The notes under the pieces were generated by a model. It was not told where the DNA came from. It saw only the letters and a list, made by a program, of their open reading frames with translations, and ran no database searches. A stretch of 55,662 bases of DNA from a virus. Both the position numbers and the translations under genes were made by a program. This document shows positions 5,874 to 49,049 of this stretch, piece after piece. The DNA is taken from positions 1 to 55,662 of IMG/VR virus record IMGVR_UViG_3300010150_000023; one strand, 5' to 3'. How positions within the stretch are numbered: position 1 is the stretch's first letter; every line of letters begins with the position of its first letter.

Positions 5874-8351
5874 ATGGCAAATACTAGACTAACAAAATCT
5901 GTAATAGATGCACAACTACAAAAGTCTGTAGGCAAAGGACAAGATCTTTTAAGTACAGCCTCTAGTTATGCTTCATTTGGTGTAGATCAGATGAAAGGGT
6001 TAGTAAGTGATGCTAGTTTAAAAGTTATAGACGCGGCTAAGAATGGTGTAACAGATACTCTTACTGGTGCAACAGCAGGTGTTAGTGCCGCTTCGACAGG
6101 TAAAATAACTTTTGATGAAATGTTATCAAACTTGCAAGAGTCACTTAAGAATTTACCAGCATTAGGTAAAACTGAAAATCAACTAAAAAGATATGCAACA
6201 TACAATTATAATATTACACTTGCTTGTTTAACAGTTAACGAAATAAATTTTCCAGATACAACATATAGAATATCTCCTCCGCAAGTAACAGTTTTAAGAT
6301 CAGGTGGTGGCGCTCCTGGAAAAGCAATGACAGCATACGAAAGTAGCGATGCTCAGTTAGAATATTACATTGATAATTTAGTAATGAATAGCGTAATTGC
6401 GCCAACTAGTAAAACACGTACCTCAAATGCTACTGTACAAAGTTTTACTGTACATGAACCTTATAGTATGGGACTGTTCCTACAAACTTTAATGATTGCG
6501 GCAAACAAAGCAGGACATGCAGACTATCTTAAAGCACCGTTTGCATTAATAATTGAGTTTAGAGGATATGACGACAACGGAAATATACTTGATACAGGAT
6601 CAACAACACGACGAGTATTTCCTATTAAAATTGCTAAGATGGATTTTGATGTAAATGGTTCAGGTAGTTCATATAATATTAGATCACATGCTTGGAACGA
6701 AAGTGCATTAACAATGGTTTCTCAGCATACAAAAACTGATACAATTATAACAGGCGATTCAGTACAAGAACTTTTACAAGGTGGTCCTGAAAGTTTAACT
6801 GGTATTATTAATAGACGTAATAGCGAAGCGGCAAAAGCACTTAACACAATTAATAAAGATGAATATTTTATTATGTTTCCGCCACAACTTGTAAGTAGTC
6901 TTGGACTAGGAAACAAAGCAGATACGCCAGGCGAAAATAAAGCGGCTATGAAAGAAATAGAGTTTTATAAAAAACTAACAGGCGGATCCTTTGAGACTTT
7001 ATTAGACTATGAAGAAGATGCCGCTAAAGAAACTATAGAATCATACATTAATTTACAGCCGGGTAATAATAACCTATCAGCAGTTATAAAGCGTATAGCA
7101 GATAATAAAGATGTTGCAAACGATATAGGTAAAGGCACAATAGCACGTTCAATGGCAACGGGTGGTGCTGTACCGTTTGGTAGAGAAGCATTTTCAAATG
7201 ATCCAGACACTGATGTTTTTAATTCAGATCGTGTAACAATATCTAATAGTTTTAGAACATTACAGTTTCCGCAGTCAACAAGTATAGAACAAATAATTGA
7301 AGAAGTAGTTATATTAAGTACCTATGCAAAAGATGCCGCAGTTGAAGTTAAAGCAGACGCAGACGGAATGGTAGATTGGTTTAGAGTACATACTCAAACT
7401 TTTTTAGTACCAGACGAAGATGTAAGATCAAAGACAGGCGAGAATCCAAAAGTATTTGTTTATGCAGTTGTGCCTTACAAAGTACATAGCAGTATCTTTA
7501 GTAATGCAACACAGCCATCAGTTGGAATTCAAAAGAGAGTATCACAAGCGGCAAAAGAATACAATTACATATACACTGGTAAGAATGATGATATTATAGA
7601 TTTTGAAATTAATTTCAATACATCATTCTTTACTGCATTAAGTTCTAACTATAACGGTTCAGGCGATTCTAAAAATGCAACAAAAGATTCTACTAATAAT
7701 CCAGGTAATCCTCACATAGCGGCCAAAGAAGGGTCTGCAGGAAACAATAGCTCTACTGGTAGTAAATCTCTTAAAGAGGATCCTAGTAGTAAAAATACAG
7801 GAACCGGAGGAGGTAATACTTTAGAAACTCCAGAAGTCCAAATTGCTAGATCATTTAATGAAGCTATAGTAAATAATGAGACTGACTTAGTAAGCATGGA
7901 CCTAACAGTATTAGGCGATCCATATTACCTTGCAGACAGCGGTCAAGGAAATTATAGTTCTCCCCCATTAACAAAAGCATATACTGCTGATGGAACAATG
8001 GACTATCAAAGATCTGAAGTAGAAGTAGTTGTAAATTTTAGAACACCTATTGACTATAACCAAACAGACGGATCAATGATATTCCCAGAAGATACTGTAC
8101 CAGTTAAATCATTTAGTGGATTGTATAAAGTGAACACAGTTGAAAATAAATTTGAAGGCGGAAAATTTATACAAGTACTTTCATTAATACGTAGAAATAA
8201 TCAAGAGTCAGATATTGGAATACCTGGTACTCCAGACAATACATCAGCAGTTGAAACAACAGATGAGAAAAAACCTAACGAAACTAAAAATAATCCAGAA
8301 TCAGTTACAGCTGAAACAACTACACCAACTAATACAGGGAATCCGCAGTAA
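5874..8351 (+). CDS. Baseplate hub protein, probably gp27-like
   Basis: An 825-residue structural protein between gp53 and gp5. The first 90 residues are helical and Ala/Ser-rich. The folded region contains YNITLACLTVNEINFP, a block around VHEPYSMGLFLQTLMIAANK, and a conserved motif AAKEYNYIYTGKNDDIIDFE near 560-580. The last 60 residues are rich in Thr, Glu, Asn and Pro and probably disordered. Its place directly before gp5 suggests the hub partner (T4 gp27, 391 residues), but it is twice that length and no unambiguous gp27 signature is visible. A large wedge-associated protein is the alternative. The stop overlaps the gp5 start (TAATG). Confidence 0.55.
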   Translation: MANTRLTKSVIDAQLQKSVGKGQDLLSTASSYASFGVDQMKGLVSDASLKVIDAAKNGVTDTLTGATAGVSAASTGKITFDEMLSNLQESLKNLPALGKTENQLKRYATYNYNITLACLTVNEINFPDTTYRISPPQVTVLRSGGGAPGKAMTAYESSDAQLEYYIDNLVMNSVIAPTSKTRTSNATVQSFTVHEPYSMGLFLQTLMIAANKAGHADYLKAPFALIIEFRGYDDNGNILDTGSTTRRVFPIKIAKMDFDVNGSGSSYNIRSHAWNESALTMVSQHTKTDTIITGDSVQELLQGGPESLTGIINRRNSEAAKALNTINKDEYFIMFPPQLVSSLGLGNKADTPGENKAAMKEIEFYKKLTGGSFETLLDYEEDAAKETIESYINLQPGNNNLSAVIKRIADNKDVANDIGKGTIARSMATGGAVPFGREAFSNDPDTDVFNSDRVTISNSFRTLQFPQSTSIEQIIEEVVILSTYAKDAAVEVKADADGMVDWFRVHTQTFLVPDEDVRSKTGENPKVFVYAVVPYKVHSSIFSNATQPSVGIQKRVSQAAKEYNYIYTGKNDDIIDFEINFNTSFFTALSSNYNGSGDSKNATKDSTNNPGNPHIAAKEGSAGNNSSTGSKSLKEDPSSKNTGTGGGNTLETPEVQIARSFNEAIVNNETDLVSMDLTVLGDPYYLADSGQGNYSSPPLTKAYTADGTMDYQRSEVEVVVNFRTPIDYNQTDGSMIFPEDTVPVKSFSGLYKVNTVENKFEGGKFIQVLSLIRRNNQESDIGIPGTPDNTSAVETTDEKKPNETKNNPESVTAETTTPTNTGNPQ

Positions 8352-41372: not shown

Positions 41373-41657
41373 TTATTTGTATTTCAGAAGTGGACAAGCC
41401 AACATGAAATAACTTGCTTCTTTCGGGTCTTCAAATCCTACCTTAATAAAGTTATCAGTTTTACCATTACTACTTGATACTCCGACTGATTTTCCTAAAA
41501 AGTATCTACCTTTTAAATGTCTCAGTACCCATTTATTTAACGATTCCTCGATGTTGTAGGTGTAAGGAATGGTTATATATTCGAATTGTGGAGATACGCA
41601 ATGCGCTCTCCTTAATCCAAAAAAGTTTAAAGCGTTTGGTTGTTTAAGTTTATGCAC
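41373..41657 (-). CDS. Hypothetical protein overlapping the VWA/metallopeptidase gene
   Basis: A 94-residue protein with a GTG start overlapping the end of the upstream gene by 8 bases; GAGGAAA precedes it at suitable distance. Visible features are FEYITIPYTYNIEESLNKWV, LRHLKGRYFLGKSVGV and SYFMLACPLLKYK. It seems to be a small mixed alpha/beta protein, with no family I can name. The tight overlap with the metallopeptidase/VWA gene suggests co-translation and possibly a related job. Confidence 0.55.
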   Translation of the reverse strand: MHKLKQPNALNFFGLRRAHCVSPQFEYITIPYTYNIEESLNKWVLRHLKGRYFLGKSVGVSSSNGKTDNFIKVGFEDPKEASYFMLACPLLKYK

Positions 41658-42948
41658 TCATTTCCTCGTAGTGTAAAGTTGTACCAAACGGTGCTTCGGT
41701 CTTTTTATCATGATGTGAATGTAATAAAAATAATGTATCACAATAATCTGCATCACCCCATGAGTCCCATGTATATCCATCTGTAAACATAATGAACTTT
41801 TTAGGAACAATATCTCTGTCTTTCATGTACTGCCAGTTAACGTCAAAGTCAGTGCCGCCACCGCCCATAACTTCGTAGTCACGTAAGTCTTCTCCACCAT
41901 CAGCAGTAAATTCTTGTTCGTTATATACCTTTGTATCAAAGCACCATACAGTAATTTTGTAATCTGCATACTGATCCATAATGCCTTGTACTTCACTTAA
42001 AAAGTCTGTTGCTTGTGAATTACCAATTGATCCTGACATGTCAATACTAACACATAGTTCAATTGAATCGTCAAAGTTTTGTCCTGGAAGTACTGCACTA
42101 GTATGCCAGCCTTTACGTGAAGGTTTCATAAATGTAAAGTCATTTTTTACAGTAGATTGAATCTGCTGTGAAATAATTTCACGCCAGTTCATTTTAGGCT
42201 CTGTAAGTTCTTTAATCATACGTTGCACTTCGCCTGGTGTATTACCTGCACCTGCCGCTTGTGCCGCTTGCATCATGCCTTCTTTAATTTCGTCTTTAAT
42301 TTGTTTTGCTTCTGCTTTAGTCATCTTAGGCTTTTTCTTAGATGTACCGTTGCCGTTTGAATCTTTACCTTCGCCGTTGTCGCCCGGTTGATCACCACCT
42401 TCTGCTTCAAGGTGCTCGTCTAGTAACTCACCTAATTGTTCTAAGTAGTCTTTTCCGTTCTGTTTTGCAGTTTCGTATATGTCATCATATACTTGCTCAC
42501 CGCTCCAACCTTCATATTTAAAGTCTTGATAGCAGTCTACTAGTTTAGGCTTTTCACCAATACGATCACGTACTAGTAAGTTATTAACTAGATAGTCAAC
42601 AGCAATATTCCAAATCAAAGGCTGTCGATCTTCTCTACGATCCATGTGTCCAAAAACACAATGTAAAATTTCATGTGCAATAACAAATTCAATTTCTTTG
42701 TTTGACATTGCATTAAAGAACTGAGTGTTGTAATAAAGGTTGCGTCCGTCTACAGCGGCAGTAGGTAACCAATCATCTGCGGCTAAAATGCGTAAACGTG
42801 TTGCCATGTTGCCAAAGAATGGATGACGCAACAACAAACCTACACGAGCAATAATAATGCGGTCATATACTTCTACTCGCATTTCTTCTAGTGCTTCTGG
42901 TGTTATATTAAGGTCTGGTTCCCAAAGTTTAGTTCCTGCAACGCTCAT
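41650..42948 (-). CDS. VWA domain protein with N-terminal HExxH metallopeptidase-like domain
   Basis: A 432-residue two-domain protein. Residues about 20-180 hold the zinc-binding motif HEILH (92-96) with a further His at 101, like the metallopeptidase-like domain associated with VWA proteins (DUF2201 type). A hydrophilic Gly/Asp/Asn linker (about 182-207) leads into helices and then a VWA domain (about 295-432) with an intact MIDAS site: DMSGS (303-307), Thr366 in GGGGTD and TDG (389-391). In bacteria such proteins pair with MoxR AAA+ ATPases to remodel or mature target proteins. The MoxR gene is directly upstream, and both carry nearly identical promoters. The substrate is unknown. Proteolytic activity is inferred from the motif only. 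Confidence 0.85.
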   Translation of the reverse strand: MSVAGTKLWEPDLNITPEALEEMRVEVYDRIIIARVGLLLRHPFFGNMATRLRILAADDWLPTAAVDGRNLYYNTQFFNAMSNKEIEFVIAHEILHCVFGHMDRREDRQPLIWNIAVDYLVNNLLVRDRIGEKPKLVDCYQDFKYEGWSGEQVYDDIYETAKQNGKDYLEQLGELLDEHLEAEGGDQPGDNGEGKDSNGNGTSKKKPKMTKAEAKQIKDEIKEGMMQAAQAAGAGNTPGEVQRMIKELTEPKMNWREIISQQIQSTVKNDFTFMKPSRKGWHTSAVLPGQNFDDSIELCVSIDMSGSIGNSQATDFLSEVQGIMDQYADYKITVWCFDTKVYNEQEFTADGGEDLRDYEVMGGGGTDFDVNWQYMKDRDIVPKKFIMFTDGYTWDSWGDADYCDTLFLLHSHHDKKTEAPFGTTLHYEEMSA

Positions 42949-42983
42949 GTTCTTATGCCCTTTTGTTTGTTACTATACTTATT

Positions 42984-43011
42984 AGTATACACTCTTTACA
43001 CTAAAAGTCAA
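42984..43011 (-). promoter_or_regulatory. Promoter of the VWA/metallopeptidase gene
   Basis: TTGACT (43011-43006), 16-base spacer, TATACT (42989-42984). A perfect inverted repeat TATACT-AATA-AGTATA (42974-42989) overlaps the -10 box and the start region. The sequence matches the moxR promoter at TTGACTTTTA, AGAGTGTATACTA and the downstream GTATAG. Confidence 0.75.
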
Positions 43012-43018
43012 TATAAAA

Positions 43019-43044
43019 TGGACGTTTTTTAATGAGAACGTCCA
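43019..43044 (-). terminator. Rho-independent terminator after moxR
   Basis: TGGACGTT / AACGTCCA, an 8-bp stem with a 10-base loop, followed on the minus strand by TTTTAT. It lies about 18 bases after the moxR stop and just before the promoter of the VWA gene, so the two genes are separate transcripts despite being adjacent. Confidence 0.7.
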
Positions 43045-43061
43045 AAACTCTACACACCATA

Positions 43062-44150
43062 TTAAGACTGTTGTGCGGCCTTAATATACTTTCCAAAACG
43101 ATCGTGGAATTCATCAAAGCATTCCACTTCATCTGGATCAATGGGCAAAGCGTACTGAGTGAGTGCTACTTTAACACCCATGACAACCAATTCAGTTTCA
43201 AAATTGTCCATTGCAAAGCGTAAAAAGTTATTCACTTTTTCATCAAACTTCTTATCATTTGCATCTGACGCTTCTTTAAGTTCGTAGCAAAGTGATACAG
43301 TCAGGGAATACATTGCACTGATTTCTGTCTGTTTCAACTCTTTAACCTTACCTGACAAAATGTCAGTTGGGTTAGGCATAGATGCCGCTACTTTACGGTG
43401 TGCCATAAACTTAATGGCTAACCCTTCGCCGACTGTACCTGATGTAAGATCAGTTGTAGTTTCGACGTCGAGTTCGTCTTCTAATAGTTCACTTACAAAT
43501 GTCCAACTACGTGGAGTTGCAAATGAACGACTTGGTGACTTTGGATCAAAGTCGTATAAATCTTTCTTACTAAACTGTAAAAAACCTACTACATCGTTAT
43601 GTATCTTTTTATCTACAGCCCAATCAAACCAATCTGCAAAGTTAACCTCTAACTCTAAGTGGATGAAACGGTTTGCTAACGGAGCAGGCATTCTGTATGT
43701 AACACCTTTGTCAGCTTCACGGTTACCAGCCGCAACAATTAGTACATTGTCTGGTAGTTTGTATGCTCCAACCTTACGGTTAAGAATAAGTTGATAAGCC
43801 GCCGCTTGTACAGCAGGTGCCGCAGAGTTCATTTCATCTAAGAACAATACAATGTTGTCGTATTGTGCCGCAAATTCTTCACTTGGAAGTTCTACAGGCG
43901 GTGCCCATTTCATTGTGTTATCGTTAGCGGCATAATAAGGCATGCCTTTAATATCTGTTGGATCCCATAAAGACAAACGAATGTCAATCAAGTGTGAATT
44001 GGGTAAACTGTTAGCCACTTGTTCGACTATTTCAGATTTACCAATACCTGGAGGTCCCCAAAGAAAGATTGGACGCTTCTTTTTAAGAGCGTGTTTAATT
44101 GATTTTTTAGCCTTATTAGGGCTTACGGTGCGTAGTGCTACATTTTCCAT
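43062..44150 (-). CDS. MoxR-family AAA+ ATPase
   Basis: A 362-residue AAA+ protein. Walker A GPPGIGKSE is at 32-40, Walker B LFLDEMN at 102-108, sensor 1 in VLIVAAGNRE (about 134-143), and an Arg-finger-like LANRFIHLEL near 160. The typical MoxR insertion residues follow Walker B (SAAPAVQAAAYQLI). I chose the ATG at 44150 because AGAGGA lies 6-11 bases upstream; the ATG 24 bases earlier has no ribosome binding site. MoxR ATPases cooperate with VWA proteins as chaperones for metal-centre insertion or complex remodelling. The VWA/metallopeptidase gene lies immediately downstream with a twin promoter. A role on host or virion complexes is inference. Confidence 0.88.
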   Translation of the reverse strand: MENVALRTVSPNKAKKSIKHALKKKRPIFLWGPPGIGKSEIVEQVANSLPNSHLIDIRLSLWDPTDIKGMPYYAANDNTMKWAPPVELPSEEFAAQYDNIVLFLDEMNSAAPAVQAAAYQLILNRKVGAYKLPDNVLIVAAGNREADKGVTYRMPAPLANRFIHLELEVNFADWFDWAVDKKIHNDVVGFLQFSKKDLYDFDPKSPSRSFATPRSWTFVSELLEDELDVETTTDLTSGTVGEGLAIKFMAHRKVAASMPNPTDILSGKVKELKQTEISAMYSLTVSLCYELKEASDANDKKFDEKVNNFLRFAMDNFETELVVMGVKVALTQYALPIDPDEVECFDEFHDRFGKYIKAAQQS

Positions 44151-44205
44151 ATTATATTCCTCTTGTGTTGTCATCAGTGCTAAGTTAATTTCTAACTATA
44201 CATAT

Positions 44206-44257: not shown

Positions 44258-44632
44258 TTATTTTTCGTGTCGGTTCATTGCTTTAGTAAGACCGTATTTA
44301 CGTAGGTCTCCACTAAACAAATGTAGTTCCATTGCTTTCTTTTCGCCTGTTACTACAATCGAATTATGGGTAAGATAGTAAGGACAGTCAATAAACTTGT
44401 CTAAGAAGATAATGACTTGTGTTGTAAGGGGCATATCTTTTGGATACGGCACATCGTATGTCGCAAGATCTATTTCGGTTAAGACATCAAAACCTAATTC
44501 AGTGAGACATAGTCCGCCTGCTTGTCTAGGGTTCTTCCACCATAAGGGCATAAATTCTTTAACTGATATATCGTTTGATGTTTTGCCTAGTTGATTGAGG
44601 AAGATTTTGGTATAAGTCTCTTTCCAGTTCAT
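44258..44632 (-). CDS. Conserved phage protein, unknown function
   Basis: A 124-residue protein containing FMPLWWKNPRQAGGLCLTEL followed by GFDVL, a pattern I know from small uncharacterised proteins of marine T4-like phages. The later block VIIFLDKFIDCPYYLTHNSI and the end LHLFSGDLRKYGL are also distinctive. It overlaps the upstream gene by 4 bases (ATGA), so it shares its expression, including the hairpin control described there. No catalytic motif is visible; the hydrophobic core suggests a compact alpha/beta fold. Confidence 0.65.
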   Translation of the reverse strand: MNWKETYTKIFLNQLGKTSNDISVKEFMPLWWKNPRQAGGLCLTELGFDVLTEIDLATYDVPYPKDMPLTTQVIIFLDKFIDCPYYLTHNSIVVTGEKKAMELHLFSGDLRKYGLTKAMNRHEK

Positions 44633-44919
44633 ATCTCTGTTTCTAATTCACCTGTTGATAACTTATATACCGCAAATTCGTCTGTATTAAACATGTCGTT
44701 TAACTTCTTTGCTAAGTTATGAGCGTGTCCGGGGTTAGAAAAAGATACCTTCTTATACTTAGGTCCTGGATAGTTTGTGATAGAGTTTAAACTCTTTAGG
44801 TTGAAAGGTTTGTTGTTGTAGAACACTGCCCAGATAGCATCTGCATCTAGAACTTGTTCAGCTCTATATGTTTTCTTATCTATGTGTTCTAGCAATACGG
44901 TTGGTTTAGGCCTACTCAT
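44629..44919 (-). CDS. Conserved phage protein under hairpin and late-promoter control
   Basis: A 96-residue basic protein: RPKPTVLLEHIDKKTYRAEQ, then AIWAVFYNNKPFNLKSLNS, YKKVSFSNPGHAHNLAKKLN and the end DEFAVYKLSTGELETEI. The fold looks alpha/beta; I cannot name a family with confidence. Its start is remarkable. The first two bases of the ATG are the end of an 11-bp inverted repeat, the ribosome binding site AAGGAG lies in the loop, and a late promoter motif lies just upstream. This predicts silence in early read-through transcripts and translation from late transcripts. The following gene overlaps by 4 bases. Confidence 0.65.
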   Translation of the reverse strand: MSRPKPTVLLEHIDKKTYRAEQVLDADAIWAVFYNNKPFNLKSLNSITNYPGPKYKKVSFSNPGHAHNLAKKLNDMFNTDEFAVYKLSTGELETEI

Positions 44920-44959
44920 ATGCGTATACTCCTTAAAATTATATACGCATATATTTATC
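44918..44959 (-). promoter_or_regulatory. Late promoter plus ribosome-binding-site hairpin (T4 gene e-like)
   Basis: On the minus strand GATAAATA (44959-44952) leads into ATATGCGTATA (44952-44942), a 13-base loop with AAGGAG, then TATACGCATAT (44928-44918), whose end is part of the ATG at 44919. The arms are perfectly complementary over 11 bp. Late transcription starting 6 bases after the motif would begin within the first arm and leave only about 5 bp of stem. Confidence 0.7.
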
Positions 44960-44983: not shown

Positions 44984-45223
44984 TTACTTCCAGTCAGTTC
45001 CGCCGTCTAACCTTACTTCAATGTCACTTCCGCCGCCACTATTTTCCTTAACGTATCTTTCTAAGTCGCCTTCTAGTCTTGCCATTACTATACCTAACGT
45101 GTATGCAAGGTTCTTGGCTTGTGCTATAGGAAGTTTAACTTCTCTAGAATTTGATAAATCTGCAGACTTAGTTTGCTGTAGAAACATCTGTATTGAAGAA
45201 GTGTTTAACGGCTCACTTGACAT
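44984..45223 (-). CDS. Small conserved phage protein, unknown function
   Basis: A 79-residue protein with a helical core (VKLPIAQAKNLAYTLGIVMA, then RLEGDLERYVKE) and a Gly-rich acidic end. The N-terminal half is Ser/Thr-rich. Its start lies 11 bases inside the end of the upstream gene, which supports co-translation. It belongs to the operon driven by the promoter at 46784-46812. No motif points to a function. Confidence 0.55.
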   Translation of the reverse strand: MSSEPLNTSSIQMFLQQTKSADLSNSREVKLPIAQAKNLAYTLGIVMARLEGDLERYVKENSGGGSDIEVRLDGGTDWK

Positions 45224-45683
45224 TTGCTTTACTCAACGCTGACTTCATTTCAAGATCTGTTTTAAACGGTCCTTCAAATTCGTAACGTTCTACAGTAAGT
45301 AGTTTAGGACAAAAGCTCTTTACCCAACCTTTGTCAAAGTGTATAATGTAATATCCTGCACAATACAAGCTCTTACTCTTATTACTTTTAGTAAACAATG
45401 GTAGTTTACGCTGTACATCTAGCATAGGATTGTAAGGATGTGTGCTTGTTGGAAAGTTATAAACTTCTTTTTCCGGCTTCTCTTCTGGCTCTTCTAGTAC
45501 TTCGCTAATCAGTACACCGTCGCCGAACGTACTCTTTAGTGCCTTTTTACTGTCAAAATAAGCAGTTCCTGTAGGGCCACTAAACATATACTTGTCTTCA
45601 CTAATACTTAAAGTTCCAACACGTACACCTTCTTCTTCAAGAATCCAAAATTTGTCTTTAAGAATAGTTTTTGTTTTTATCAT
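45213..45683 (-). CDS. Conserved phage protein, unknown function
   Basis: A 156-residue protein starting MIKTKTILKDKFWILEEEGV. I chose this ATG because it overlaps the stop of the upstream nuclease gene as ATGA and follows a GAGG; a longer version would overlap that gene by about 70 bases. The first part, VGTLSISEDKYMFSGPTGTA, is a compact beta domain; the second has YCAGYYIIHFDKGWVKSFCP and KLLTVERYEFEGPFKT. I recall similar proteins beside the flap nuclease gene in marine T4-like phages. The function is unknown. Confidence 0.65.
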   Translation of the reverse strand: MIKTKTILKDKFWILEEEGVRVGTLSISEDKYMFSGPTGTAYFDSKKALKSTFGDGVLISEVLEEPEEKPEKEVYNFPTSTHPYNPMLDVQRKLPLFTKSNKSKSLYCAGYYIIHFDKGWVKSFCPKLLTVERYEFEGPFKTDLEMKSALSKANVK

Positions 45684-46666
45684 TGTGGATACCTCGCTTG
45701 TAATGGTTCTGCAAAGGTTGCCGCCTGATCTGCAATACGTTGCATATCCCACTTAGCACAAAACTTCATAAGTCTCATGCCTACTTGTGCTACTTCTTTA
45801 GGCTTAGCATTCTCTGCAATAGTATTATTAATTATCTCTCTAATGTCTGCAGGTTGTGCAGTCAAATCACATAGTGTAACATTACGTGTATAGTCATCTA
45901 GTACACGATGCTCTACACCTTCATGATCAACCCAACGTTGTAGCATCATGTTATTCCAGTTGTAGCCTTTACTGTCTTTATCAGCATATGCTTCAATAAG
46001 GCCTACTTTGTTCTTAGTGCCTTTCTTACGTACACCTGGATATGCACTAAACACATTATCACTAGTGTCGCCACGCATACACTTTTCAAACAACATAAAG
46101 TCAGGGTCAGGTGCAGGCTTTTCTAGTTTAGTCTTCTTGTCAATAACACGATCACCTTTCTTGTCAAAGTAACCTTCGTGTGTAATTGTAACGTCTTGTA
46201 TACCATTGTACTGTTTTACATTAGGTGCAATAAGTTGTGCAAAGTCACCGTCGGTACTAATAATAATATGTGTATCATTAGGATGTGCTTGTACCCAACC
46301 TGCAATAAGATCATCAGCTTCTAGTTGCGGATGACGCATAACAGTACAGTTAGTCTTTTCTGTAACAAAGTTCTTAAACTCATCGAAGATCTCCCAAAAG
46401 ACTTTATCTTCTTCTGACTCAGTTACAGTCATCTTATCACGTGCAACTTGTCTGTTACGCTTGTAAGGTTCGTAAAAGTCTTTGCGCCAGCTACGTCCTT
46501 CTAAACAGAACACTACATGATCAGCATTAAAGTCTGCCCATGCTTTCTTAACACCACTTAGTGTAATGTGTAATGCCATACCTACTTTAGTATCAATATC
46601 GCCACGTACAACGTGTCGAGCTCTAAAGAACGTGTTTGCTGTGTCTACTAATATATGAGTTGCCAT
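45680..46666 (-). CDS. rnh: 5'-3' exonuclease / flap endonuclease, T4 RNase H family
   Basis: A 328-residue FEN-type nuclease that should remove RNA primers and flaps from lagging-strand fragments. Metal-site motifs are in order: VDTANTFFRARH with Asp8, FCLEGRSWRKDFYEPYKRNR (53-72, the phosphate-binding Arg/Lys cluster), LEADDL with Glu116, Asp118 and Asp119, STDGDF with Asp139 and Asp141, and MRGDTSDN with Asp200 and Asp203, followed by YPGVRKKGTKNK, the helix-hairpin-helix-type DNA clamp. I chose the ATG at 46666; a form 14 residues longer adds no conserved sequence. T4 RNase H has 305 residues. Confidence 0.88.
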   Translation of the reverse strand: MATHILVDTANTFFRARHVVRGDIDTKVGMALHITLSGVKKAWADFNADHVVFCLEGRSWRKDFYEPYKRNRQVARDKMTVTESEEDKVFWEIFDEFKNFVTEKTNCTVMRHPQLEADDLIAGWVQAHPNDTHIIISTDGDFAQLIAPNVKQYNGIQDVTITHEGYFDKKGDRVIDKKTKLEKPAPDPDFMLFEKCMRGDTSDNVFSAYPGVRKKGTKNKVGLIEAYADKDSKGYNWNNMMLQRWVDHEGVEHRVLDDYTRNVTLCDLTAQPADIREIINNTIAENAKPKEVAQVGMRLMKFCAKWDMQRIADQAATFAEPLQARYPQ

Positions 46667-47211: not shown

Positions 47212-47322
47212 TTACCATCCTGCTTTTCTAATGCGATCTTCACTAATAGGAGCCTTCATAGCCCGTTCATGTTGTGCATTTTTATATTGTTTTTCTTTCA
47301 CTTGATCAAGTGCCCCATGCAT
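47212..47322 (-). CDS. Possible small protein between queE and the next gene
   Basis: A 36-residue frame starting MHGALDQVKEKQYKNAQHER, overlapping the end of queE by 17 bases and ending 3 bases before the next start. It fills the only gap in this tightly packed operon, and its last codons contain the AGGATGG that serves the next gene. The protein is charged and helical. Longer versions of this frame run antiparallel to nothing but overlap queE deeply and are rejected. Confidence 0.4.
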   Translation of the reverse strand: MHGALDQVKEKQYKNAQHERAMKAPISEDRIRKAGW

Positions 47323-48265
47323 TTCCGAATAAGGATATGTGGAGTCTAGGGGTAAATCTCCATCCTCTTTCCATACACGCCTCCGCCACGTCTTTAACGT
47401 TGAGGGAATATTCTTCACTGCGTCCGCCCAACGGCATAAGATATACCGGACATTCCACCCCGGCACTTCTATAAGCGTCCACAGCTTTTGTAACTTCGTC
47501 AAAGTCGTTATCAGTAGCCACAACAAACTTAAGATAAAGTTCACTGCCGTCAACACGAGTATACTCGCGAGCAACATCAGGCTTAATAGCAGTCTCCCAA
47601 GGTTCTCCTGAGACACTAAGTTTTGGGGAACAACTCCAAGTGACTTCAAGTCTATCGCTATCATTGAGATAGTTGTAGAGATCGTCGTGTAAATGTTGTG
47701 TAGTGTTTGTTTCAAATGTAACATTTTTTAAATCCTGCATACGTGGATGCTCAAATAGTTCTACGTACAATCGTTGCCACGCCAACAAAGGTTCGCCGCC
47801 TGTCATAATCAAGTGTATATCTTGACCATTGTCCATTGTCCACTTACCTTCTGGAGTAAGCGATAGCAAGTGTTCAACTACTTCGTCTACAGATGCTTGT
47901 TTATTAAAGTGTTTAAACTCTGGGTAAATGCTTGCATATGTATCACACCCTGTATGTATGATAGGCAAGTCATTAAACTCAGCAGTAGTTTTGTGTACAT
48001 CACTAGCAATTAAGTCTGCAACTTCTTTATTGTGAACAATGCCTGCTTTTTGTTTTTCGTCACGCATTGGCTCATTATCTAAACCAAAGTTCATACAGCG
48101 GAAGTTACAACCGAAAGTACGCAGGAATACACTAGGTACTCCTACAAATTTACCTTCGCCTTGTACGCTATAAAATGCTTCTGAATATCTAAGTTTCATT
48201 TGTGGCTTTCTTTTAACAGCAGTAAACTCAGGCATTCCTAATTGATATGCTGGAGCTTCTATCAT
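47306..48265 (-). CDS. queE: QueE, 7-carboxy-7-deazaguanine synthase (radical SAM), variant cluster spacing
   Basis: A 319-residue radical SAM enzyme converting 6-carboxy-tetrahydropterin to 7-carboxy-7-deazaguanine. The N-terminal YSEAFYSVQGEGKFVGVPSV is the QueE signature. The FeS ligands are spaced unusually: Cys53 and Cys57 in FGCNFRCMNFG, then a third Cys107 in HTGCDTYAS, giving CX3CX49C where most radical SAM enzymes have CX3CX2C. The SAM-binding TGGEP is at 155-159, and the end RFTPRLHISLFGNAWGT is typical. The insertion makes it longer than bacterial QueE (about 220). The ATG at 48265 follows AGGAT and lies one base after the folE stop. It is co-transcribed with folE. Confidence 0.88.
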   Translation of the reverse strand: MIEAPAYQLGMPEFTAVKRKPQMKLRYSEAFYSVQGEGKFVGVPSVFLRTFGCNFRCMNFGLDNEPMRDEKQKAGIVHNKEVADLIASDVHKTTAEFNDLPIIHTGCDTYASIYPEFKHFNKQASVDEVVEHLLSLTPEGKWTMDNGQDIHLIMTGGEPLLAWQRLYVELFEHPRMQDLKNVTFETNTTQHLHDDLYNYLNDSDRLEVTWSCSPKLSVSGEPWETAIKPDVAREYTRVDGSELYLKFVVATDNDFDEVTKAVDAYRSAGVECPVYLMPLGGRSEEYSLNVKDVAEACMERGWRFTPRLHISLFGNAWGT

Positions 48266-48266
48266 A

Positions 48267-48956
48267 TTATGATCCTGCCGCAAATTGTTGTTGTAACTTA
48301 ACGTTGTCAATAAACTCTTTCTTAGTTGCAGGGTCATCTTTAAATGCACCACGCAATACAGTTGTTTGAGTTAATGAACTATGGGCTCTAATACCTCTGT
48401 TTTCACAACAACCATGTGTTGCTTGTACATATACACCTACGTGTTCACTACCTGTTTGTTCTTGTATTGCATTAGCAATCATAACATTTAGTTCTTCTTG
48501 TAGTGTACCTCTTGTAGCACACCATTGTGCAATACGTGTATACTTACTTAGTCCTAGTAATTTAGGTCCTGCAATAATACCAATATACGCTACACCTTTT
48601 ACTGTTTGGTGATGATGTGAACACAAACTTGTAAGTTCACTACGTACAACTAGCATACCTTCATAACCACCTTCAATGTAGTTAGGGAAAGCACTTGGGT
48701 TAGGCATTGGATCATAACGTCCTGCCATAATCTCATTGATGTACATTTTAGCCATACGTCTTGCAGTATCCATACTGTTAGGATCTGTTTTCGTATCAAT
48801 TAGTAACTTTTGCAACACTTCTTCAAAAGCAGGAACTGCTTCGTCAATTAGTTGTTGTTTGTCACCTTCTTCAATGTATTCAGCAATGTTATCATTTGCC
48901 CAATACCTTACGCCAGCTTCTTCTAGCTTTGCTTGGATTTCTTTACTTTTACTCAT
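48267..48956 (-). CDS. folE: GTP cyclohydrolase I
   Basis: A 229-residue enzyme opening GTP to dihydroneopterin triphosphate, the first step to folate and to 7-deazaguanines. It contains MDTARRMAKMYINEIMAG (62-79), LCSHHHQTVKG (111-121) with zinc ligands Cys112 and His115, YTRIAQWCATRGTLQEEL and THGCCENRGIRAHSS with the third zinc ligand at Cys183 or Cys184. Length and motifs are those of a complete type I enzyme. It starts an operon with queE behind a perfect sigma70 promoter, with GGAG before the ATG. Direct linkage to queE favours 7-deazaguanine rather than folate supply. Confidence 0.94.
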   Translation of the reverse strand: MSKSKEIQAKLEEAGVRYWANDNIAEYIEEGDKQQLIDEAVPAFEEVLQKLLIDTKTDPNSMDTARRMAKMYINEIMAGRYDPMPNPSAFPNYIEGGYEGMLVVRSELTSLCSHHHQTVKGVAYIGIIAGPKLLGLSKYTRIAQWCATRGTLQEELNVMIANAIQEQTGSEHVGVYVQATHGCCENRGIRAHSSLTQTTVLRGAFKDDPATKKEFIDNVKLQQQFAAGS

Positions 48957-49020: not shown

Positions 49021-49049
49021 ATTATACATTGTATTTAGGTTCTTGTCAA
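49021..49049 (-). promoter_or_regulatory. Perfect consensus sigma70 promoter for folE-queE
   Basis: TTGACA (49049-49044), 17-base spacer, TATAAT (49026-49021) on the minus strand, 65-93 bases before the folE start. The leader between contains the inverted repeat ATAATATTAAT-like AT-rich DNA but no terminator. Confidence 0.85.

Follow-up and report, generated by a model that had tools for sequence, protein, structure and literature searches.

A T4-type late promoter overlapping a start-codon hairpin points to an early-off, late-on RNA switch at a widespread phage gene of 96 codons

How could a phage gene that follows a gene of early-type function in the same direction be kept silent early in infection and be translated late? 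This question is raised by a short leader in IMG/VR virus record IMGVR_UViG_3300010150_000023, whose 55,662 nucleotides we call the window (all window features below lie on the minus strand). The leader precedes a gene for a 96-residue protein, and we consider it highly probable that it acts in cis as an RNA timing switch, off early and on late. Read on the minus strand, it is GATAAATATATGCGTATATAATTTTAAGGAGTATACGCATATGAG as a whole. It contains a T4-type late promoter TATA box, GATAAATA (44952-44959), which would be expected at -13 to -6; arm 1, ATATGCGTATA (44942-44952); a segment between the arms (44929-44941) with the Shine-Dalgarno AAGGAG inside it (44934-44929); and arm 2, TATACGCATAT (44928-44918), which is the exact reverse complement of the 11-base arm 1 and contains the spacer and the first two bases of the AUG (ATG at 44919-44917). 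The first-pass annotation had described this motif and a perfect 11-bp inverted repeat with AAGGAG between its arms and the ATG in arm 2, and both are confirmed, coordinates included. Two details shift slightly. The late motif was said to stand directly before arm 1, and its position holds, but the two share one base, the final A of the motif. Likewise, AAGGAG was placed in the loop, where AAGGA indeed lies, but the last G is paired in the fold described below.

The folded stem has 13 pairs rather than 11, because a U-G pair closes each end; the whole AUG is paired and AAGGA sits in an 11-base loop. The folding energy of the hairpin is -13.9 kcal/mol; shuffled sequences average -7.2, and 3 out of 200 do as well. 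We compared the cost of opening the stretch from the Shine-Dalgarno to the AUG in read-through and late RNA, using as control 100 shuffles of the part that precedes the start. In the read-through RNA of the window opening costs 12.7 kcal/mol, a value that none of the 100 upstream-part shuffles reached and that is stable at 12.6-12.9 kcal/mol across folded lengths. The read-through RNA thus holds the helix sequestering the Shine-Dalgarno and/or AUG by which a T4-type leader is recognized. For a late RNA starting at 44946 the cost is 3.5 to 9.5 kcal/mol, varying with the coding sequence folded, and 1.8 to 11.7 kcal/mol over every start and length tried. According to this model the predicted late RNA remains partly folded, and no fully open leader is obtained with much coding sequence, which counts against the switch. 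The energy of the minimal element goes from about -13 to about -3 when the RNA begins at the predicted late start (calculated for L006, near-identical to the window). None of the other late-motif genes in the window passed the accessibility test. Among the T4 controls, I-TevII, e and 26 rank top, and soc scores only moderately, in the middle of the ranking.

The late promoter itself is well embedded in what is described for T4 and its relatives. In T4, roughly one helical turn separates the late TATA box from the start downstream of it, the first base of the box is at -13, nine T4 late promoters have A instead of T at that position, and the late consensus of phage Aeh1 has a/gC at -13/-12 (PMC2988020). 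The window motifs fit both the A-at--13 variants of T4 and the a/gC consensus of Aeh1. Motifs of the class [AG][AC]TAAATA also occur 24 to 46 nt before other window genes, encoding a virion structural protein, a baseplate wedge subunit and tail fibre-like proteins. The 96-residue protein has at least 598 confirmed relatives in IMG/VR, almost all of which (Atu_ph07, SCTP-2 and Pseudomonas phage 30-3 among them) have a late motif, usually GATAAATA, ahead of the start codon; in phage Phosso it is AATAAATA. Counted over distinct relatives, 215 of 217 have an [ACGT][AC]TAAATA motif before the gene. Moreover, large contigs that carry the 96-residue gene and the element encode a gp55-like protein, supported by PHROG late-sigma profiles (E 1e-78 for phrog_12791, and 3.5e-22); the evidence for a gp55-type late sigma thus comes from large related contigs, the window itself being a 55.7-kb fragment. 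A sliding clamp search with T4 gp45 as its single query, run without a positive control, gave no match. Because of the T4-type placement of the motif and the gp55-like sigma in relatives, transcription is expected to start at about 44946, 6 nt past the motif as inferred from T4 late promoters, and about 6 of the 11 arm-1 bases would be missing from the late RNA. In the window as in relatives, the late promoter is placed such that the 5' strand of the helix would be lost, the start being predicted from position. A search of the accessible literature for PA5oct transcripts with start sites found no paper.

Early transcription would have to reach the gene from upstream, and the gene order allows for it. 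A 5'-3' exonuclease gene (45680-46666; Pfam PF02739, phrog_107), an early-type function, is followed in one direction by two small genes and then by the 96-residue gene. The sigma-70-like site that had been proposed at 46812-46784 is present as a putative early promoter (TTGACA-17-TACAAT, 11/12 match), and a second putative one lies at 49021-49049 (TTGACA-17-TATAAT, 12/12 match); both are consensus matches, and promoter-like sites in the upstream region overall are no more frequent than in shuffles. No terminator-like sites were found on the same strand between the putative early promoters and the 96-residue gene. Together, the exonuclease gene in the same direction, the sigma-70-like sites and the lack of a terminator-like site would fit early read-through. 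The gene immediately upstream (79 codons, 44984-45223) stops 31 nt before arm 1, and the upstream reading frame likewise closes ahead of arm 1 in every measured relative except one; therefore, translation does not routinely run into the hairpin and melt it. About half of the relatives have their upstream stop codon within some 11 nt of arm 1, where a terminating ribosome might disturb it. Farther upstream, within 47306-48956 of the window, are genes for a 7-carboxy-7-deazaguanine synthase-like protein (QueE, judged from sequence only) and a GTP cyclohydrolase-like protein (phrog_2197), which perhaps serve 7-deazaguanine DNA modification.

The switch that we propose would work as follows. Early in infection, RNA polymerase from the upstream early promoters would read through the locus and yield transcripts with both arms. 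These would fold, burying the AUG and the spacer and confining the Shine-Dalgarno to a small loop, so that neither the 96-residue protein nor the coupled 124-residue protein would be made. Later, a gp55-type sigma would direct initiation at GATAAATA, giving an RNA that starts inside arm 1, lacks the stem-closing half and could be translated. The anatomy of the leader, compensated pairing at the RNA level (see below), the common late motif and the late sigma of relatives are the observed parts of this scheme; we infer where the late RNA actually begins, that early transcripts read through and how strongly translation responds.

The strongest evidence for the hairpin is comparative. The first-pass annotation had set covariation of the arms in relatives as a refuting test beforehand, and across the 137 distinct elements changes in one arm turned out to be compensated in the other. 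We scanned the virus collection with GATAAATATATRCGTA, which comprises the motif and arm 1 and leaves arm 2 unspecified, and 74 of the 81 sites in the loci analysed stand before the 96-residue gene family. An R that is G in arm 1 faces C (or U) in arm 2, and an R that is A faces U: the covarying pair is G-C in 88 elements, A-U in 39, G-U in 9 and A-C in 1 (Fisher p 2e-24). Arm 2 is absent in three elements (L120, L129 and L156). To allow for shared ancestry, we took contrasts on a 97-row tree of six neighbourhood proteins, the 96-residue one included, with the hairpin element left out; the 96-residue protein by itself gave too poor a resolution (4 usable contrasts), and the six-protein tree was used instead. 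Supported branches yielded 12 independent pairs, of which about 9.4 were concordant, none opposite and 2.6 unchanged (sign test, median p ~0.004). The covarying base is at position -2, counted from the predicted late start. Since the predicted late RNA would not contain it, selection on this base at the RNA level implies that it matters in transcripts started upstream. Occlusion of the read-through RNA tells a similar story. Measured against shuffles, it falls within the top 5% for 95 out of 140 relatives that share the arm type and for 34 out of 75 that have other sequences, where about 4 are expected, and for none of 16 other late-motif genes from the relatives' contigs. In the isolates SCTP-2 and Phosso the occlusion is not significant. 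An Rfam search returned a sub-threshold match only, to the DUF2815 RNA (19.2 bits vs a cut-off of 41.2).

An inverted repeat over a promoter could also be a double-stranded DNA operator, for instance for autorepression as by I-TevI, with no part for RNA structure. Indeed, the repeat overlaps the promoter, and the arm-1 letters TATRCGTA recur in many phages. However, the distance from arm to arm varies from 8 to 18 nt across elements, and departures from perfect pairing in the core are 18 wobbles (G-U/U-G) against 4 true mismatches, that is, G-U is tolerated and A-C is not. It is because of this excess of wobbles and the variable spacing that we favour an RNA helix and reject the operator, which is further disfavoured by occlusion being kept in lineages with unrelated arms and by arm 2 lying nearly always within a few bases of the AUG; we regard it as very improbable. 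Still less probable is a hairpin that acts through a trans factor on its loop, RegA- or RegB-like, rather than through a change of 5' end between early and late RNA. GGAG is the target of RegB (PMC3014915) and is found at the loop in the window, but most relatives have AAGGAT or AAGGAA, without GGAG, and the late promoter stays inside or beside the hairpin despite changes of the arms, which a trans factor would not require.

Finally, the pairing might be a functionless by-product of an AT-rich promoter followed by start-codon sequence, given that AT-rich leaders fold by chance and that arm sequences such as TATACGTATA are partly self-complementary. This explanation, the least probable that we weighed, is rejected on the grounds of the shuffle tests and the compensated changes on independent branches, and it also sits badly with the absence of pairing at other late genes of the same phages. 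An RNA helix that separates early from late transcripts is hence the reading that we retain.

In T4, the genes e, soc, 49 and I-TevI are documented to have inhibitory leaders in which a late promoter is embedded (PMC3014915). Other homing endonuclease genes have such leaders too, and all of these are late genes that lie on polycistronic RNA of the early or middle class (PMC2988022). By its anatomy, the assignment of the window leader to these T4-type early/late leaders that sequester the ribosome binding site is well supported. The first-pass annotation had likened it to gene e, and the resemblance to T4 leaders stands, but soc is nearer in layout than e. Like the window, gene e forms an inhibitory hairpin in its early read-through RNA and has late promoters in the 5' arm, translation differing about 100-fold (PMC3014915). 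It has two late promoters, however, in contrast to one in the window, and it is a lysis gene, which the window gene is not as far as can be told. T4 soc is the closest layout, with TATAAATA, arm 1 a few bases past the motif, a loop containing AAAGGAG and an arm 2 that ends in the AUG. Soc, a late gene found on RNA of the early region, is listed among T4 genes with inhibitory structure in the initiation region (PMC3014915, PMC2988022). Nonetheless, it is an unrelated gene of an unrelated phage, its product is a capsid protein and its shuffle-test score is lower. I-TevI, I-TevII and gene 49 also have the late promoter inside or beside the sequestering hairpin, but they encode nucleases, and the arrangement in the window is of the soc type and not of the loop type. 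In I-TevII the TATA box lies in the loop region of the hairpin, as in the related lineages L226, L274 and L281.

Other lineages build the hairpin differently. In those without TATRCGTA, arm 1 is often upstream of the late promoter, the late motif is in or near the loop and the Shine-Dalgarno is in or adjoining arm 2. This loop-type layout occurs in L226, L223, L274, L281, L265, L367 and the cultured Pseudomonas phage 30-3 (L083), and the homologue of cultured PA5oct-group phages has a loop-type version as well; in Atu_ph07 (L084) it is the late motif that forms arm 1. The logic of the switch is, by these comparisons, apparently conserved while sequence and layout change. A bolder reading, which we hold to be doubtful, combines selection on the switch logic and not on the sequence (several independently built hairpins, in phages far outside the T4 family) with conserved arm-1 letters that may also serve as a binding site of the 96-residue protein, so that late autoregulation would lie atop the timing switch. 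Some further features of these leaders were observed. In nine relatives (L227, L230, L235, L237, L239, L256, L271, L273 and L275) no Shine-Dalgarno was found and just 5-10 nt separate the late motif from the ATG; therefore, their late RNA would have no leader or almost none. A repeat like [AG]CGTAG[AT]TAA, resembling the arm-1 region, is present in 44 of 140 elements (4% in shuffles), for instance L009 and L028, and in most of the 44 it lies 19-23 nt before the late motif GATAAATA. On the minus strand of L173, GATAAATATATGCGTA occurs twice (6347-6362 and 7116-7131), one copy preceding a protein that resembles the 156-codon upstream gene.

Another question regards the proteins under control. 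Both reading frames given by the first-pass annotation exist: the 96-residue gene (44629-44919) is followed by a gene for 124 residues (44258-44632), whose start overlaps the first stop by ATGA and which is probably translationally coupled to it. The 96-residue protein belongs to no known family or fold, with no sequence match in Pfam, PHROG or PDB. Its AlphaFold model is of moderate confidence (pLDDT 77, pTM 0.58), and structure comparison matched only uncharacterised phage proteins and nothing in PDB. The 124-residue protein has a homologue in 105 of 108 related loci and a weak match to phrog_15638 (unknown function), with no match in a search against phage records. From how consistently early translation appears to be blocked, it is reasonable to infer that the 96-residue protein may be harmful if made early. 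The leader thereby singles out an unstudied and widespread protein whose early synthesis is evidently selected against, and would extend a textbook control device of T4 to many mostly uncultured T4-related and jumbo phages, backed by a comparison of well over a hundred distinct leaders, in which changes are compensated and several topologies occur. Given that a homologue of the PA5oct group is in culture, the switch is open to testing. After the 96- and 124-codon genes, the window encodes a MoxR-like AAA ATPase and a VWA/metallopeptidase protein (41650-44174), the latter being DUF2201 with the PHROG label HNH endonuclease; in phage Phosso an AAA ATPase gene likewise follows the two homologues.
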